64,000 bases of DNA, from positions 2,362,501-2,426,500 of the forward strand of contig NC_007776.1 of NCBI RefSeq assembly GCF_000013225.1. Reading direction: 5' to 3'. The notes under the pieces were generated by a model. It was not told the origin of the DNA and ran no database searches. It saw nothing but the letters and a program-made list of their open reading frames with translations. Source of the DNA: Synechococcus sp. JA-2-3B'a(2-13) (lineage in GTDB: Bacteria > Cyanobacteriota > Cyanobacteriia > Thermostichales > Thermostichaceae). Positions within the stretch are counted from its first letter, which is position 1. Every line of letters starts with the position of its first letter. A program made the position numbers and the translations under genes. Below are positions 1 through 13,585 of the stretch, piece by piece.

Positions 1-1257
1 GGATCCCTGGATATGAAGCCTCTTTTCGAGGCCATTCTCAAGCATGTCCCACCTCCCATTGGGGATCCCGGCAAGCCCCTGCAGCTGCAGGTCACCACGC
101 TGGAGTATTCGGAATACCTGGGCCGGATTGTGATCGGCAAGATCCACAACGGCACCATCCGTCTGGGGGATCCATTGGCAGTGGTGAAAGAGGATGGATC
201 CATTGCCAAGGGCAAAGTAACCAAGCTGTTCGGCTTTCAGGGCCTGCAGCGCATCGAGCTGACGGAAGCCACCGCCGGCCACATTGTTGCTGTGGCGGGG
301 TTTGCCGAGGCCAACATTGGCCACACCCTCACCTCTCCCGAGAATCCCCAGGCTTTGCCGCTCATCAAAGTGGACGAGCCCACATTGCAGGTGATGATCT
401 GCGTCAACGACTCCCCCTTCGCCGGGCAAGAGGGTACTTTTGTAACTTCGCGGCAACTGCGGGAGCGCCTGATGCGGGAGTTGGAAACCAACGTGGCGCT
501 GCGGGTGGAAGAAACCGACTCGCCGGATCGCTTTTTGGTGTCGGGGCGAGGCGAGCTGCACCTGGGCATCCTGCTAGAAACCATGCGGCGGGAAGGCTAT
601 GAGTTTCAGGTGGGGCAACCGAAGGTAATTTTCCGCGAGGTCAACGGCCAGCCCTATGAGCCCTATGAGTGTTTGGTGCTGGATGTGCCGGAAGCGACGG
701 TGGGGGCCTGCATCGAGCGGCTGGGGCAACGGCGGGGAGAAATGCAGAACATGATGGTGGGATCCGATGGTCGGGCTCAGCTGGAGTTTGTCATTCCGGC
801 GCGAGGGCTGATCGGCTTTCGAGGGGAGTTTATCCGCATCACCCGCGGCGAGGGGATCATGAGCCACAGCTTTCTGGAATACCGTCCCCTGACTTCTGAG
901 ATGGAAATGCGCCGCAACGGGGTGCTGATTGCTTTTGAAGAAGGGGTGGCCACCACCTACGCCCTGAAAAACGCCGAGGATCGGGGTGTGTTTTTCATTA
1001 CCCCAGGTACCCGTGTTTACAAAGGGATGATCGTGGGCGAGCACAACCGTCCCCAGGACTTGGAGTTGAACGTCTGCAAAACCAAGCAACTGACCAACCA
1101 CCGAGCTGCGGGCGGGGAGGAGCTGGTGCACTTGCAAGCGCCGGTGGAGATGACCCTGGAGCGGGCTTTGGAATACATCGGCGAGGATGAGCTGGTGGAG
1201 ATCACGCCCCAGTCGGTGCGCCTGCGCAAGGCACAGTTAACGCCCTCTCGCCGCTAG
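1..1257 (+). CDS. typA: TypA/BipA ribosome-associated GTPase, C-terminal part (5' end outside window)
   Basis: The frame is open from the first base, so this is the 3' portion of a longer gene. The visible 414+ residues cover the translation-factor beta-barrel domain II (RIVIGKIHNG, SIAKGKVTKL), the EF-G-like domains III and V (SGRGELHLGILLETMRREGYEF) and the BipA-specific C-terminal domain (RGLIGFRGEFIRITRGEGIM, NCKTK-like KTKQLTN, ALEYIGEDELVEITP). The nucleotide-binding G domain is upstream of the window. TypA binds the ribosome under stress and supports assembly and translation at non-optimal conditions (family knowledge). The gene converges with the M48-like gene after 30 bases. Identification is firm; the true start cannot be seen. 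Confidence 0.96.
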   Translation, partial: GSLDMKPLFEAILKHVPPPIGDPGKPLQLQVTTLEYSEYLGRIVIGKIHNGTIRLGDPLAVVKEDGSIAKGKVTKLFGFQGLQRIELTEATAGHIVAVAGFAEANIGHTLTSPENPQALPLIKVDEPTLQVMICVNDSPFAGQEGTFVTSRQLRERLMRELETNVALRVEETDSPDRFLVSGRGELHLGILLETMRREGYEFQVGQPKVIFREVNGQPYEPYECLVLDVPEATVGACIERLGQRRGEMQNMMVGSDGRAQLEFVIPARGLIGFRGEFIRITRGEGIMSHSFLEYRPLTSEMEMRRNGVLIAFEEGVATTYALKNAEDRGVFFITPGTRVYKGMIVGEHNRPQDLELNVCKTKQLTNHRAAGGEELVHLQAPVEMTLERALEYIGEDELVEITPQSVRLRKAQLTPSRR

Positions 1258-5484: not shown

Positions 5485-5726
5485 CATTGACATCCTCCCC
5501 GGCCTTTAGGCCGGAGATTCCTACCACGCTACGCATGGATGGCTCCTTGCGCAGTCGTCTCGGCGGGTTCCTGCTTCCGACCGCCCGTGCAGTTCGATCC
5601 ACAGGCCATCCGGGCTGACACGGGTGGTTCACCCACCCGCATCCCGACCGCAGCGTCGGCCGTGTCCTGCCCTTCGTCTCGCAACAGCTATATCCCGCGA
5701 GCAAGGATGTTGATGGCACCGACCAG
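5485..5726 (-). ncRNA. Candidate omega RNA (TnpB guide RNA) region at the 3' end of tnpB
   Basis: IS605-type TnpB nucleases use an RNA that starts inside the 3' end of tnpB and runs to the element's right end, with the guide read from the flank (established for the family). The candidate segment runs from the tnpB tail through the 5499-5514 hairpin to about 5482. The position rests on the family layout; no covariance search was made. The guide would come from below 5482. Confidence 0.35.
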
Positions 5727-6962
5727 AAAGGCCTCCGGCCCGCTGCCGCGAAAGGCCTCCGGCCCGCTGCCGCGAAAGGCCTCCGGCCCGCTGCCGCGAA
5801 AGGCCTCCGGCCCGCTGCCGCGAAAGGCCTCCGGCCCGCTGCCGCGAAAGGCCTCCGGCCCGCTGCCGCGATCGGCGTTATTCTCATAGCCGCACGCCAC
5901 GCACTCGAACCAGGCTTGGGTCTGGCGGTTGTCTGATAAAACATGGCCGCAACATGGACAGGTGCGGCTCGGGTTCTGCGGCGGCACGACAATGAGCCTG
6001 CCGCCTTTCCAGGCCAGCTTGTACTCCAGCTGGCGACGGAACTCGTACCACCCCTGGTCGAGAATGGCTTTGTTTAACGCTGACTTGGCGCGGACGTTCT
6101 TCCCAGGAGCATCTGCCGTCCCTGCCGCCAACTTGGACATATTCCGCACCCGCAAGTCCTCGATACACACGATTGCCTGGCTTTTGCTAATCGCGGTCGA
6201 GACCTTGTGCAGGAAGTCGCGGCGGGCGTTGGCCATCTGAGAATGAATACGCTGGAGGCGGGCTTTTGCCTTCTTCCAGTTGTTGCTGAACTTGACTTTG
6301 CGGGAGAGCGCTTGCTGTGCCTTGCGCAAGCGCGCCTCGTGCCGCTTGAAGCTGTTGAGGGGCGCGTAGAACGTGCCGTCCGAGAGGGTAGCCAAGCGGG
6401 CAATACCGACGTCGATGCCGACTACGCCGCCCTTCGGCTTGGGTTGCTCCACCTCGCGCTCGGTCTGGATCGACACGAACCACCTGCCAGCGTGCTTGGA
6501 TACGGTGACGCTCTTGACCTTGCCCACCACGTCGCGGCTGTTGCGATAACGCAGCCAGCCAAGTTTGGGCAGGCAGATGCGGCTGTTGGCCTGGTCCAGC
6601 TGGATTTGCTTGGGCGCGGGATAACGGAAGCTGTCGGACCGGCCTTTTTTCTTGAAGCGAGGGAAGCCGGCGCGCTGGGCGAAGAAGTGGCTGTAGGCTC
6701 GCTCCAAATCCTGGAGCGCCTGTTGCAGCGGATGCACCGGCGCATCCGCCAGCCACGCCGTATCTGCGCTGTGGCGCCACGCGGTGAGCAGCTGGCACAG
6801 GCCCGCATAGCCTAGCTTTTTCTGGCCTTGCTCGTGACGCTCCTTCTGCAACGCCAGTGCTTTGTTGTAGACGAACCGGCAGGAGCCAGCAAAGCGGCGC
6901 ATCTGCCGTTCCTGCTGGCCGTTGGGCAGCAATTCGTACTTGAAGGCTTGAAGTCGTTGCAC
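5688..6962 (-). CDS. tnpB: TnpB RNA-guided nuclease / OrfB with six in-frame octapeptide repeats
   Basis: 424 residues from a GTG start. The N-terminus is MQRLQAFKYELLPNGQQ with SCRFVYNKAL. The RuvC residues are visible: D184 in VGIDVGIARLATLSDG, E268 in IVCIEDLRVRNM, and D364 in CGYENNAD. The zinc finger is CPCC (335-338) and CVAC (354-357). Directly after D364 come six copies of RGSGPEAF, encoded by exact 24-bp tandem repeats. The usual tail LVGAINILARGI then resumes. Removing 144 bases would give the ordinary NAD-LVGAINIL motif. Without the insert the protein is of normal length, about 376 residues. All catalytic residues remain, but the insert lies beside the active site, so activity is uncertain. 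Confidence 0.93.
   Translation of the reverse strand: MQRLQAFKYELLPNGQQERQMRRFAGSCRFVYNKALALQKERHEQGQKKLGYAGLCQLLTAWRHSADTAWLADAPVHPLQQALQDLERAYSHFFAQRAGFPRFKKKGRSDSFRYPAPKQIQLDQANSRICLPKLGWLRYRNSRDVVGKVKSVTVSKHAGRWFVSIQTEREVEQPKPKGGVVGIDVGIARLATLSDGTFYAPLNSFKRHEARLRKAQQALSRKVKFSNNWKKAKARLQRIHSQMANARRDFLHKVSTAISKSQAIVCIEDLRVRNMSKLAAGTADAPGKNVRAKSALNKAILDQGWYEFRRQLEYKLAWKGGRLIVVPPQNPSRTCPCCGHVLSDNRQTQAWFECVACGYENNADRGSGPEAFRGSGPEAFRGSGPEAFRGSGPEAFRGSGPEAFRGSGPEAFLVGAINILARGI
5727..5870. repeat. 24-bp tandem repeat, six perfect units, inside tnpB
   Basis: Six identical 24-base units run from 5727 to 5870 without interruption. On the minus strand each encodes RGSGPEAF. The unit core (CTCCGGCCCGCTGCCGCGA) is a close relative of the dispersed repeat ACTCCGTCCCGCTAACGCGA found elsewhere in the window. 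There are no spacers, so this is not a CRISPR array. Confidence 0.97.
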
Positions 6963-7735: not shown

Positions 7736-8479
7736 CTAAGCCATGCTGGGCTGAAGTTTACGCAATTCCTGCCAAAAATCCATTATTTTCAGATTGACCA
7801 AACTTGGAAAAGAATGATGAAAAAAGTGTCGCCCCCCAGGGCAAAACCACATTTGATCCCCTGGCTTTAGGTGGTTTCTCCACTTCTCGAGCGAAGCAGG
7901 ATCCACAATGGGGTCATCCTTGCTGGCGCAAACCAACATCGGCACCGACACTTTCTGGGCTGGAATCGCTATCACCTGAAATAGGGAGTGAGGTATGGGA
8001 GAAGTATCCAAATCTTTAGCCAGAGCATAGGAGAGTGAGCGTGCTCGCCACTGTTCTGAAGTAGGTAGAAGGCTCTGGGCTATACGCACCAAGAGTTGTT
8101 CCCGACTCCAGCAAAAGATTTTTCGCTGCACATAGAAATGGGCATGCCAAGTGGTAGCAGGCCAACCTCCCACGGCCAGCAAGGTCAGAGACTGTACCCG
8201 CTGTGGGTAACGGCAGGCAAAAAGATAAGCGGCCACCCCGCTCAAGCCGTGGCCGATAAGATGAACGGGTCGATCCCAAGCTTTGAGATATTCGTATAGC
8301 AGCGTGATTACAGTCTCCAGGCTACAAGGCTCATCCTGGGTTTGGTGGTACTCCCAGTAGGCTATCCGAAAGCATTTCCCCAGGGATCCTAATAAAGGCT
8401 GATCAAAGAGCTTGAGACTGGGAGAAATGCCCAGATACAGGGCCTCAAAAGCGAGCGCAGAAGCGGAGCTTAAACTCAT
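7736..8479 (-). CDS. Alpha/beta hydrolase, isiC-like position
   Basis: 247 residues from MSLSSASALAFEALYLGIS; an upstream ATG at 8527 would add 16 weak residues. The fold is supported by the nucleophile elbow GHGLSG, the acid strand VCASKDDPIVDP and a C-terminal histidine in PGGRHFFHH. Substrate is unknown. It lies downstream of the isi cluster on the same strand, separated by about 237 bases that include a hairpin. In several cyanobacteria an isiA-isiB operon ends with isiC, an alpha/beta hydrolase, so this is plausibly the isiC equivalent. That link rests on position and fold only. Confidence 0.8.
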   Translation of the reverse strand: MSLSSASALAFEALYLGISPSLKLFDQPLLGSLGKCFRIAYWEYHQTQDEPCSLETVITLLYEYLKAWDRPVHLIGHGLSGVAAYLFACRYPQRVQSLTLLAVGGWPATTWHAHFYVQRKIFCWSREQLLVRIAQSLLPTSEQWRARSLSYALAKDLDTSPIPHSLFQVIAIPAQKVSVPMLVCASKDDPIVDPASLEKWRNHLKPGDQMWFCPGGRHFFHHSFPSLVNLKIMDFWQELRKLQPSMA

Positions 8480-8716: not shown

Positions 8717-10297
8717 TCACAGCCCAGGCAAAATCTGGGCCAACACGTCCGCACTGTTCAGGAGCATGTAGGCAAACAGGGCACCGCCAACGCCGCCCAC
8801 CAGAAACCCTCCCGCCAACTGGCTCCAGCCGGCACGGGTGCGCAAGTTTTCGGGCAAGTCCTCCGATCCTGCCGGTACTCGCACCGGCTGAGGGGATCCC
8901 TGCGATTCGGCCATCAGTTGCACGCCCGGCGTCGGATAGGCCACCTCGCCGTAGGGGGTATTGACCACTGCCACCAGCCGCGAGCGAGGAAAGGACACCC
9001 GTCCGTAAATGGAGAGACAAACCGTCAGGATCAGCACCAGGCCGATGGTCGCCAGCGTCCCTGCCGTCAGGGCCTGCTCCGAATTCCGCAGCGGACTCAA
9101 CTTGTAAAACGGCCCCACCAGGAAGTACCCATGAGCCATGCCGATCTCCAAGCCGCGCAAAAAAGGAGAGAGGCCCTCCCGGTAGATGGGCAGGTTTTGC
9201 AGCAGCAGCAGGGTGAGATCGCCCCGGTTTACCGGCGTGTCCAAGTTGCCCACCTGCGGATCTGTGGCTCGCACCCAGCCCCCGTGCTGGAAGTCAAAGC
9301 CGCTGGCCGCCGCCCGCGCCCGGATGGCATGCCAGATGTGCCCCGCCAAAAACAGGATCCCCAAGACAAAGTGGGCTGTAGCCAACCAGGTACGGCTGCT
9401 CACCACACCCATCTCGTCGGCAGCCAGCCCCAGCGGCCCGTAGAAAGCCACCGGATAGGCGATCTCGTTGACGCTGACAAAATAGGCCGCCAAGATGCCC
9501 ATGTAGGCCAGGGCCCCCAGGCTGTAGGAGAGGTAGGCTTCGCCCGAGTAGATCAGCACCTGCTTGGCCCAGGCAAAGGGCCGTGTGGCTATGTGCCACC
9601 ATCCCCCCAGCACACAGAGCAGGCCGACATAGATGTGCCCTCCCACCAGATCTTCCAGATTGTTCACGGCGGCCATGCCCTGCTGACCCATGAGCGGCGT
9701 CAGGTAGGCAAAGATCCGCAGCGGATTGAGGGTGGGATCCGCAACGATCCGCACGCGGCCCAGGTTGGCATCGTACAGCCCTCCCCAAAAGAGAGCCTTG
9801 GCCACCAGCAGCCATGCACCCAGCCCCAGCAGCAGCAGGTGGATGCCGAGGATGGTGGTCATCTTGTCGTCATCTTCCCAGTCGTAGCCGAAAAACTCGG
9901 CAAAGGTTTTCCCCTTGCTCAGCACCTCTGGTCCCAAAAGGGCATGGAAGATCCCTCCTGCCCCCAGCACTGCCGAGGCAATTAGGTGCAGAACGCCCAC
10001 GACAAAAAAGGGATAGGGATCCGTAACCACCCCTTCTGCGTTGACGCCGATGCCCAAGCTGGCCAGATGGGGCAACAAAATCAGCCCCTGGCTGTACATA
10101 GGTTGATTTGGATCCCAGTGGGCCACCTCGAACAAGGTCATGCCGCCGGCCCACAGCATGATCAGCCCCGCATGGGCCACGTGGGCCCCCAGCAGCTTTC
10201 CGGATAGGTTGAGCAAACGAGCATTCCCTGCCAACCAACTGACCTGAGGGGATCCCTCAGCAGAAGTAGGCGATGAAGATAGAACTGCGCCGGTCAT
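8717..10297 (-). CDS. IsiA/CP43-type chlorophyll-binding protein fused to a PsaL-like domain
   Basis: 526 residues from an ATG preceded by GGGAG. Residues 1-345 are a six-helix CP43'/IsiA antenna, parallel to the isiA product along its length ([59 protein letters not shown]). It lacks the large lumenal loop of true CP43. From about residue 355 it continues as a PsaL-like domain ([20 protein letters not shown] then [17 protein letters not shown], with two further helices), ending near residue 526. PsaL is the photosystem I subunit at the trimer interface, so the fusion could dock a light-harvesting antenna at that site. It lies 47 bases after isiB, in the isi cluster, and iron-stress control is likely. 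Confidence 0.95.
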
Positions 10298-10344: not shown

Positions 10345-10854
10345 TTACAGATTGAAGAGCGTTTTTAGTTTAGCCGTCCACTCTTTAATTCGTTTTTCCG
10401 TCAGCTCTGGTTGGTTATCTTCGTCCAGAGCAAGGCCGACAAACTCACCGTCAACCACTCCCTTAGACTCGTTGAACTCGTAGCCTTCTGTAGGCCAGGA
10501 GCCGACATTTTTGCCGGCACGCTCGGCAATTTTTTTGGCCAGGATCCCCATGGCATCTTGAAAGTTGTCGGGATAGCCCAACTGATCCCCAACTCCAAAG
10601 TAGGCTACCGTCTTACCGGAAAAATCGATCTCATCCAAATTTGGGAAAAAACCATCCCAATCAGCCTGAAGCTCCCCAATATTCCAAGTTGGACAGCCGA
10701 TGATTAAGTAGTCGTACTTCTCAAAGTCCTCAATGCTGGCCTCGGCAATGTCAATTAAATCTACATTGTCTTCGCCCAGCTCTTTTTGAATCATCTCGGC
10801 AGCTCTTTCGGTATTTCCGGTTTGAGTGCCGAAAAATAGACCTATTTTTGCCAT
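10345..10854 (-). CDS. isiB: Flavodoxin IsiB
   Basis: 169 residues, the usual long-chain flavodoxin length. The FMN phosphate loop is GTQTGNTE (residues 9-16), and the flavin-contacting loops are [14 protein letters not shown] and [14 protein letters not shown]. Flavodoxin replaces ferredoxin as electron carrier when iron is short. It lies 73 bases after isiA and 47 bases before the IsiA-PsaL gene, all on the minus strand, as in the classic isiAB operon. Confidence 0.97.
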
Positions 10855-10927: not shown

Positions 10928-11962
10928 TTAGGCCTGCTGTGCAGCGAGCTCTACTCTGCCGGTACGGAAATTGAATCCTCGGGCTTTCAGGGCATGGAAA
11001 AGGTGGCCCTGAAGGAAGAAAAAGGCCAGCCAAAAGTGGGCATTGGCCAGCCAAACCCTAGACGTGAGAGCCTCTCCTTGCTCAAAAAAGGGATAGCGAT
11101 CCAAGCCCACCTGCAGCAGCGGCCCATAGAAAACTTCGGGATAGACCACTGGGTTAACGGCAACGAAATAGGCGGCAATAAATCCCATCAAGGCCAAAGC
11201 TCCCAAGCTGTAGGAAAGATAAGCTTCCCCAGACCAGATAAAAATCCGTTCTGCCCAGGCAAAAGGCTTGGTCGCGATATGCCAAACCCCACCTGACACC
11301 AGGAGCAAGCCCAGCCAGAGGTGGCCGCCCACCACGTCTTCTAAAGTGTCCACCCCGGCGATCCAGTGGCGCCCTTCTATGCCCAACAGGTGGCCAAAGG
11401 GGTTCCAGTTGGGAGACACCAGGCGCACCTCTCCTGCCACCGGGTCGAACAAGCCGCCAAACACCACTGCCTTGAGCACCAAAAGCCAGGCTCCCAATCC
11501 CAGCAGCACCAGGTGGATCCCTAGGATGGTGGTCATCTTGTTTTTGTCTTGCCAGTCGTAGCTAAACAGGGGAAAGGCTTTGGGATCCAGCACCGCCGGC
11601 CCGCGCAGGGCATGAAAAATGCCGCCAAACCCCAAAAAGGCAGAGCTGATGAGGTGGATCGCTCCCACCGCAAAGTAGATATCCGTATCCAGGACTTCCC
11701 CGCCGGATCCCACCCCCAGCCCCAAGCTGGCCAGGTGGGGCAAGAGAATCAGCCCCTGCTCATACATCGGTCGGCTGGGGTCAAACTTGGCCAACTCGAT
11801 CAGGGTCATCGCCCCTGCCCAGAGAACGATCAGCCCGGCATGGGCCACATGCGCCCCCAGCAGCCGGCCAGAAAGATCGGTCAAACGGGCGTTGCCCGCC
11901 CACCACGGGATCTGTTGTTGCGAGCTAGATCCCCCTTCTTGCTTGAGTGTCGTCGCTGTCAT
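10928..11962 (-). CDS. isiA: IsiA (CP43'), iron-stress chlorophyll-binding protein
   Basis: 344 residues from the ATG preceded by AGAGGAGCGGAG; an ATG nine codons upstream has no such site. Six membrane helices with conserved histidines for chlorophyll are visible ([64 protein letters not shown]). The protein is of standard IsiA size, without the CP43 lumenal loop. IsiA forms antenna rings around photosystem I and quenches energy under iron starvation. It is the first gene of the cluster, with its own promoter and inverted repeat upstream (12073-12136). Confidence 0.97.
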
Positions 11963-12072
11963 CTCCGCTCCTCTTGCGTTTCTAAACAAGCTTTTCTAGG
12001 AAAAGGCCAGAGACCTTGCCCCAGGCCCGCCTCTGGCCGCACGGACACATCCTTTCGAGACACGTAACCAAC

Positions 12073-12093
12073 TGTTGAGAGTAAATCTCAACA
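12073..12093. promoter_or_regulatory. Inverted-repeat operator candidate (Fur-type) of the isi operon
   Basis: A perfect inverted repeat, TGTTGAGA, five bases, TCTCAACA. It lies just downstream of the predicted isi start site, where a bound repressor would block transcription. isiA is a well-known Fur target in cyanobacteria, and a Fur gene is in the window. A near-identical repeat with a four-base spacer is at 37957-37976. Assignment to Fur is an inference. Confidence 0.6.
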
Positions 12094-12107
12094 GCGAGCT
12101 GTGACCT

Positions 12108-12136
12108 ACTCTAGGCTTCTTGCAAACAAATATCAA
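12108..12136 (-). promoter_or_regulatory. isi operon promoter
   Basis: On the minus strand TTGATA (-35, 12131-12136), a 17-base spacer and TAGAGT (-10, 12108-12113) match sigma70-type spacing. The predicted start site is near 12101, about eight bases before the inverted repeat. Confidence 0.6.
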
Positions 12137-12352
12137 TGTCTTTAGAGTTAAGTTTTGTTAAGAGTCGGACTTGTATCCGCCCATAGCCCCACCTGGGGAA
12201 GCTGCAGATGGAAGCTGGCCCGCAGAGGGACGAGCCGGGCGATCCGGTGGCAGCCGGTGATAAAAATCTCTCCCTTCTTAAGATTGAGTCGCAATAGCTG
12301 GATTACAATCAAGCCAAAGTTGGCCAAGTCGAGGGCAAAGGAGTCGGAGGAG

Positions 12353-13585
12353 ATGTCGAGGTATCTGAAGCTGTGGACGGGGATAGGGCTTTATGTTCTG
12401 GTCAGCGGGGCCGCTTGCGGGGAAACCCAAAAGGATCCCTCGGCTGCGGGCGGCGGGGATCCACCGGCCCTGAGCCAGGCTTCGCCTCAGCAGGCAGCTC
12501 AAATGAACCCGGAGTGTCGGCCTATCCCGGTGGATGGCGGCGGCGAGGGTGGGGAAGAAGGGGCAGGCTCTCGCCGGCCAGCCGTTGTGCTCTCTCCTGA
12601 GCAGCGGTTTCAGGATCGGCAGATTTTGCTCGACTTTGCCGATCAGGTGGTGATCCCTGCCTATGAGCAGTTGGTCGCCGATACCCAGGCCCTGTCTCAG
12701 GCCATCCAGGCCTTCGTGCAAGATCCCAATGCCCAGACTTTGCAAGCGGCTCGCCAGGCTTGGTCTGTTGCCCGCATCACTTGGGAGGAGAGCGAGGCTT
12801 TTGCCTTTGGGCCGGCGGCTTATTTGGGGCTGGATGCGGATTTGGACGAATGGCCCCTGAACGAGGTGGAGGTGCTGGAAGTTCTCAACAGCGGCGATCC
12901 CCTCACTCCAGAGACCGTGGCCGAGTTGGAAAGCGGGCAAAAGGGATTTCATGCCGTGGCCTTCTTGCTCTTTGGCGTGGATAACAACAAGTCTTTGCAA
13001 GACTTTACCGAGCGGGATCGGGAGTACTTGGCTGCCCTTGGCCCAGTTTTGGCGGATACGGCGGCAAAGCTGCTCAAAAGCTGGACAGAGGGAGTGCAAG
13101 GGCTGCCTGCTTTTCGCGAAGAATGGGTAAAAGCCGGCGAGGGCAGCAAGAGTTATCTCACGCTGCAAGCTGCTGCTGAAGAAATAGCCCAAGGTATTCT
13201 CGGCATGTTGGACGAGCTGGGCAAGGTCAAAATTGGCGAAGCCTTCGCCCAGCAAAATCCTTTTCTGCTGGAAAGTCGCTTTGCCCACCATTCGCTGCCG
13301 GAGTTCCAGGCCAATGTGCGCAGCGTTCAGTATGCTTACTTGGGCGGATTTAGAGATAGAAAAGGTCGTGGCCTGAGCCAATTTGTCCGGGACATCAATC
13401 CCAATTTGGATAGTCAAATTCAGTCGGAGTTACAAGCAGCGGCGGCGGCTCTCCAGGGGATCCCTGCCCCTATCGAAAAAAGCCTTTGCGATGCCAATGC
13501 CCGTGGATCTATTACTGCCGCTATGGAAAAAATTGAAGACGCTTTCGACAGCTTTGCTCAGGAAGTTGTGCCGCTCCTGCAGTAG
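12353..13585 (+). CDS. Imelysin-like (IrpA/M75-type) iron-related lipoprotein
   Basis: 410 residues from the ATG directly after a strong GGAGGAG site; the longer open frame upstream is non-coding. A signal peptide ends in a lipobox-like VSGAAC (Cys near residue 20), then a low-complexity linker, then a two-part imelysin fold (FADQVVIPAYEQLVADTQAL; ARITWEESEAFAFGPAAYLG). The family's GxHxxE motif reads GFHAVAFLLFG here, so the Glu is replaced by Ala. Imelysins are periplasmic or surface proteins tied to iron uptake. It stands divergent from the isi operon and 45 bases before the di-heme gene, so the two plus-strand genes probably form an iron-regulated operon. Confidence 0.85.
   Translation: MSRYLKLWTGIGLYVLVSGAACGETQKDPSAAGGGDPPALSQASPQQAAQMNPECRPIPVDGGGEGGEEGAGSRRPAVVLSPEQRFQDRQILLDFADQVVIPAYEQLVADTQALSQAIQAFVQDPNAQTLQAARQAWSVARITWEESEAFAFGPAAYLGLDADLDEWPLNEVEVLEVLNSGDPLTPETVAELESGQKGFHAVAFLLFGVDNNKSLQDFTERDREYLAALGPVLADTAAKLLKSWTEGVQGLPAFREEWVKAGEGSKSYLTLQAAAEEIAQGILGMLDELGKVKIGEAFAQQNPFLLESRFAHHSLPEFQANVRSVQYAYLGGFRDRKGRGLSQFVRDINPNLDSQIQSELQAAAAALQGIPAPIEKSLCDANARGSITAAMEKIEDAFDSFAQEVVPLLQ

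Follow-up and report, generated by a model that had tools for sequence, protein, structure and literature searches.

An IsiA-PsaL fusion in the isi cluster of Synechococcus sp. JA-2-3B'a(2-13), very probably an iron-stress antenna that takes the place of PsaL in photosystem I

Introduction

Cyanobacterial proteins in which a chlorophyll antenna of the IsiA/CP43 family is joined to a PsaL domain have been described under several names, and the light and iron cues attributed to them vary by organism. Shih et al. 2013 reportedly characterised CBPV proteins as such fusions. The same domain combination is found in psbC-lk2 (Nsp37500) of Nodularia, in Chro_2988 of Chroococcidiopsis (PMC8827656) and, as cited in PMC9938196, in IsiA4 of Leptolyngbya JSC-1. 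The structural reference is IsiA2 of Anabaena sp. PCC 7120 (7Y3F, 9ZJT). In 7Y3F, a 2.6 Angstrom cryo-EM structure from iron-starved Anabaena, a photosystem I (PSI) monomer carries six IsiA, PsaL is absent and its seat is filled by the C-terminal domain of IsiA2, whose linker (L325-T343) was traced as a single chain (PMC9938196). Because this domain occupies the PsaL seat, PSI is kept monomeric. Energy passes from IsiA to PSI in 55 ps in the monomer, and competition between PsaL and IsiA2 was proposed to decide whether a tetramer or a monomer is formed; three of the six IsiA positions are left unassigned in an organism with four isiA genes (PMC9938196).

Two further relatives lie close to these fusions. 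Classic IsiA of Synechocystis and T. elongatus has the same antenna domain and an iron-stress cluster with isiB, but lacks a PsaL domain and forms rings of 18 or more subunits around PSI trimers that retain PsaL. IsiX of Synechococcus A4 and A14, from closely related hot-spring strains, is likewise an IsiA with a C-terminal extension; it differs in that the extension is described as one extra helix, and in its gene cluster and light cue. Here we report on an IsiA-PsaL fusion encoded in a 64,000-nucleotide stretch of the Synechococcus sp. JA-2-3B'a(2-13) genome (the window; Table 1).

Results and Discussion

The fusion gene and its product

The original prediction of a six-helix IsiA-type protein running without a break into a PsaL-like domain is borne out. 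From an ATG start at 10297 the frame is uninterrupted through all 526 residues, and each half matches its own family profile: PF00421 (CP43/IsiA family; Pfam) at residues 20-292 and TIGR03041 (NCBIfam) at residues 21-337 with 421 bits against a cut-off of 335, followed by PF02605 (Pfam), which covers positions 6-149 of 150 and is therefore nearly complete (E=2e-58, 196.7 bits against a cut-off of 25). The last match is one on which the prediction had been staked, and only the placement of the domain needs correcting, since PF02605 begins at residue 344 and the boundary first given, about residue 355, was some ten residues late. The large lumenal loop of CP43 is missing from the antenna domain (in the alignment, residue 295 abuts CP43 residues 298 and 403), and chlorophyll-ligand positions are kept. 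Two PsaL-domain residues, Glu384 and His389, are invariant across all 67 distinct fusions compared. The same fused frame is not due to chance: five further genomes from the genus or family carry it, as do members of scores of other genera. Together these observations confirm a real, well-formed IsiA-PsaL protein of the CBPV/IsiA2 type, a kind already described.

An AlphaFold2 model, built from 61 aligned fusions, contains nine long helices, six in the antenna and three in the PsaL domain, at a mean pLDDT of 81.7 (a version with 25 sequences reached only 60). Confidence is low only at the N-terminus, in the linker (340-359) and over part of the stromal loop (451-466). Each domain is modelled confidently but their mutual placement is not, the rmsd to 7y3f_1 being 11.6 Angstrom; as the model does not fix the domain arrangement, placement of the protein on PSI rests on homology. 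That homology is with Anabaena IsiA2, which is both the best PDB match by sequence (7y3f_1, E=5e-199, residues 16-438 and 479-516) and the best fold match in a Foldseek search of the PDB (7Y3F chain 1, E=4.3e-41, 61% identity). Domain order and an isiA-type cluster are shared, and the linker, at 19 residues, is equal in length to L325-T343 of IsiA2. Distinctive IsiA2 residues are partly replaced (W426 by Ser and W454 by Phe in the phmmer alignment), and the stromal loop is much shorter in Anabaena.

Table 1. Positions of the fusion, its parts and other features; window numbering unless stated otherwise
Feature	Position	Strand	Remarks
Window	2362501-2426500 of contig		Single contig, 3,046,682 bases
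Alpha/beta hydrolase gene	7736..8479	(-)	3' of fusion; start uncertain, may be 8527; PF00561/PF12146
IsiA-PsaL fusion gene	8717..10297	(-)	Single open frame, 526 residues; PF00421 + PF02605
PsaL domain	8747..9268	(-)	Residues 344-517, three transmembrane helices; PF02605
Stromal loop between last two helices	8828..9004	(-)	Residues 432-490, 59 residues (between Tyr431 and Trp491)
Linker	9242..9298	(-)	Residues 334-352; phmmer alignment to 7y3f_1
IsiA (CP43-type) antenna domain	9284..10297	(-)	Residues about 1-338, six transmembrane helices; TIGR03041, AlphaFold2 model
Antenna-domain helices	residues 33-59, 95-121, 143-170, 214-237, 252-276, 301-331		AlphaFold2 model
PsaL-domain helices	residues 378-400, 409-435, 488-514		AlphaFold2 model
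isiB, flavodoxin	10345..10854	(-)	NF006736 FldA, 258.8 bits, cut-off 202
Classic isiA, 344 residues	10928..11962	(-)	TIGR03041, 434 bits, cut-off 335
Dyad CTGTTGAGA-n5-TCTCAACAG (9-5-9)	12072..12094	(-)	Just after promoter-like site; candidate operator
Promoter-like site	12108-12136		Upstream of isiA
Free psaL, common type	1574016-1574438 (genome)		Near psbE/F/L, before psaI (psb/psaI names by eye); trimer-type C-terminus
Second free psaL	2927761-2928165 (genome)		After psaF; without trimer C-terminus

The isi cluster

The original prediction put the fusion third in an isi cluster, and the order isiA-isiB-fusion holds; a hydrolase gene follows, all four lie on the minus strand, and the gaps between isiA and isiB and between isiB and the fusion are 73 and 47 bases. 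Gene neighbourhoods at 80 named fusion loci, counted among the matches listed, show an isiA-type gene ending no more than 500 bases upstream of the fusion in 69. On the fusion's strand, isiB is present at 52 of the loci and a hydrolase homologue at 43. The commonest order is isiA-fusion-isiB (41 of these 80 loci), and the order seen here is a minority one, found in two of them (L128 and L134) and in the present genus. The survey thus indicates that the cluster is old and that the position of isiB has shifted. A whole-genome search with IsiA identified only two IsiA-type genes, classic isiA and the fusion, compared with four in Anabaena 7120, where PSI is otherwise a tetramer. The search also matched a CP43-length frame at 887063, taken as psbC because of its similarity and its length of 510 residues, and, weakly, one site at 295711 that is probably CP47.

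Distribution and origin of the fusions

Fusions of this kind were at first supposed to be known in a few cyanobacteria, which understates their spread. An even draw across the phylum (386 genomes, 190 with PsaL) contained the fused frame in 34 of the PsaL-bearing genomes, 33 of them detected directly and one (G309) on inspection, and named genomes add up to at least 80 fusion loci across many orders. Three of the listed named loci lie in bins labelled Chloroflexaceae (L119), Saccharibacteria (L115) and Gracilibacteria (L092), and these contigs are most likely mis-binned cyanobacterial DNA. All 34 fusion genomes have at least two PsaL matches, indicating that free psaL persists beside the fusion; three are present both in the genome studied here and in its closest relative within the draw.

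A tree of 114 PsaL domains, 67 from fusions and 47 from free PsaLs, parts the two groups by a single label change, with a support of 86/90 and presence in 91% of bootstrap trees, in an analysis whose bootstrap had not fully settled and which includes long rows. The PsaL domain of the present fusion falls inside the fusion clade, apart from free PsaL. Free PsaL is, to our knowledge, universal in oxygenic phototrophs, so that the root most likely lies among the free PsaLs. The fusions then make up one clade, which on these sequences points to one ancient fusion event. A quicker tree of IsiA domains also placed all 34 fusion rows in one clade (support 0.895), together with six unfused rows. At least one of these six, a fusion-clade IsiA in G165 (L185, 4066-5139), has a frame that stops just past the IsiA domain and is directly followed by isiB, a case of loss of the PsaL part. 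A phage origin of the fusion was dropped, since no match to it was found in the phage records searched.

Trimer marks and the two free PsaLs

Three PsaL forms are encoded in this one genome, the fusion and two free psaL genes that are unlike each other. In Synechocystis, PsaL residues D149, R153 and N157 are tied to trimers (PMC8827656). By spacing, their equivalents in the fusion are Ala, Pro and no residue, and by its C-terminal residues the fusion would not be a trimer-forming type of PsaL. The free psaL of the common type ends in ENFAGIDAIFRGLVN and keeps D, R and N. Against this rule, five of the 67 distinct fusions (L024, L027, L032 and relatives) retain a trimer-type C-terminus (NFAGIDAIFRGVVN-like). 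The calcium-site Asp of trimeric PsaL was also considered as a mark of non-trimer fusions and dropped, since Asn and Asp each occur commonly at that position in fusions and free PsaLs alike. The second free PsaL groups in a clade of its own with sequences from its genus, family and order plus one long-branched row (support 100/95), and its type is the only PsaL found in G392, which represents the single additional family searched within the order. On this pattern the genus seems to combine its own old PsaL with another of the common type.

Proposed function

By analogy with Anabaena IsiA2, the fusion is very probably an iron-stress antenna that docks into PSI by replacing PsaL. Its C-terminal domain would occupy the PsaL seat on a PSI monomer, with the IsiA domain, held by the linker, resting against PsaA, where it would block the surface for PSI-PSI joining and begin a row of ordinary IsiA subunits. 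At low iron, part of the PSI pool would be turned into single units, each with a chlorophyll antenna, and free PsaL would still build other complexes. For the present organism we infer a stoichiometry of one fusion and about five IsiA; monomer behaviour and iron control would be carried over from the homologue. Displacement of PsaL at an oligomer contact, raised as one possibility in the original prediction, has been seen by cryo-EM in the Anabaena protein (PMC9938196) and would extend to this one. The role of these fusions had also been called poorly defined; with a homologue structure and energy-transfer data available, it is better defined than supposed. The Chroococcidiopsis fusion is made in white light and lost in far-red light (PMC8827656), so iron is not the sole possible cue. 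Proteins of this class determine whether PSI is single or joined, and so shape light harvesting under iron shortage. One classic IsiA and one fusion make a very simple setting, and a two-gene organism would remove the doubt over IsiA positions that affects the Anabaena structure.

Three other readings were weighed against PsaL replacement. The fusion could bind a PSI that retains its own PsaL, capping the trimer interface by PsaL-PsaL pairing with no exchange of subunits, an arrangement proposed for Chro_2988 (PMC8827656) and in keeping with the natural trimer interface, which is itself a PsaL-PsaL contact. We regard this as improbable, because PsaL is seen to be replaced, with a traceable linker, in the homologue's 2.6 Angstrom structure (PMC9938196), and every fusion retains the Glu and His that are conserved in a seated PsaL. 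It is more doubtful again that the PsaL domain is a mere membrane anchor or remnant on a protein acting as free IsiA in chlorophyll storage or quenching. IsiA is described as photoprotective in other cyanobacteria (PMC8635728), and the unfused G165 protein indicates that the domain can be dispensable, yet the domain is complete in nearly all members and is under purifying selection: its pN/pS is 0.08 against a 92% identical relative (residues 356-437; also the last helix) and 0.13-0.22 against G388 and G389.

Least likely of all, and hardly to be expected, is that the fusion is a light-quality antenna instead of an iron-stress protein. The comparison comes from IsiX, an IsiA relative of low-light hot-spring Synechococcus whose C-terminal extension invites it and which co-purifies with far-red allophycocyanin (PMC4477158, PMC10038336). 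The IsiX extension is, however, about 100-127 residues long, probably with one extra helix, and its gene is clustered with apcD4/apcB3, whereas the present protein has a full three-helix PsaL domain and adjoins isiA and isiB. Identity with IsiX itself was ruled out on the same features, the three extra helices forming PsaL and the neighbours being isiA, isiB and the hydrolase gene, not apcD4/apcB3.

A lengthened stromal loop

The PsaL-replacing antenna proposed here differs from other fusions in the loop between its last two helices, which lies on the stromal side because an even number of helices precedes it. The loop measures 59 residues in the present genus and is rich in proline; other fusions have 17-39 residues there, free PsaLs 15-29. 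In three comparisons within the genus its pN/pS was 0.12, 0.21 and 0.24, near that of the rest of the protein, and the differences between genus members are mainly at silent sites; the lengthened loop is under purifying selection. It looks genus-specific on the sequences compared, and the first part of it is present in a broken frame from the same family (L069). A longer PsaL loop has been noted in a review for dimeric and tetrameric PSI, and a multi-proline motif accompanies non-trimeric PSI in some species (PMC8827656); from proline-rich free PsaL sequences we infer that both probably concern the same loop. A long loop much unlike that of Anabaena could alter contacts, and it offers a concrete, testable difference. 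Rather speculatively, and with the odds against it, the proline-rich loop might be a working part that adds a contact (for example to PsaD, the next IsiA or a soluble partner) unique among known IsiA-PsaL proteins; with two IsiA-type genes this would give a uniform two-component antenna on the PSI monomer, and the two unlike free PsaLs would serve further PSI assembly states.

Upstream region and candidate regulation

Promoter-like sites in the stretch searched are no more numerous than expected by chance, and one of them lies upstream of isiA with an inverted repeat just after it. An imperfect version of this dyad recurs in three further genomes of the genus. It might represent a Fur site, and it is not a close match to the usual A/T-rich box. 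Within the isiA leader, downstream of the promoter-like site, a hairpin (GGCCAGAG...CTCTGGCC) precedes a run of four U (12001-12038). Its stem is for the most part conserved in three other genomes of the genus, and the structure could be an attenuator. Rfam model RF01419 (IsrR, the antisense RNA to isiA) matches both isiA and the fusion. An antisense RNA at these genes was dismissed, as the model tracks conserved coding sequence: it scores the genome's own psbC higher (164 bits) and matches every IsiA-type gene examined. RF01419 therefore matches IsiA/CP43-family genes generally, psbC included, and is insufficient alone for annotating an antisense RNA.

A mosaic locus and other features of the window

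Comparison with another genome of the genus, from a sister lineage (G386, 2,932,766 bases), revealed near 100% identity at 11088-13000 and 8880-9685, and about 91% between these two tracts. The second tract takes in the last part of the IsiA domain together with most of the PsaL domain, so that the mosaic cuts through the fusion gene. The pattern looks like a recent exchange between two hot-spring lineages, in line with the wide hybridisation reported among such lineages (PMC12755884). Elsewhere in the window, a TnpB-like, transposon-associated frame (5688-6962) contains six perfect copies of a 24-base unit at 5726-5871, which add a GSGPEAFR repeat near the zinc-finger end of its product.
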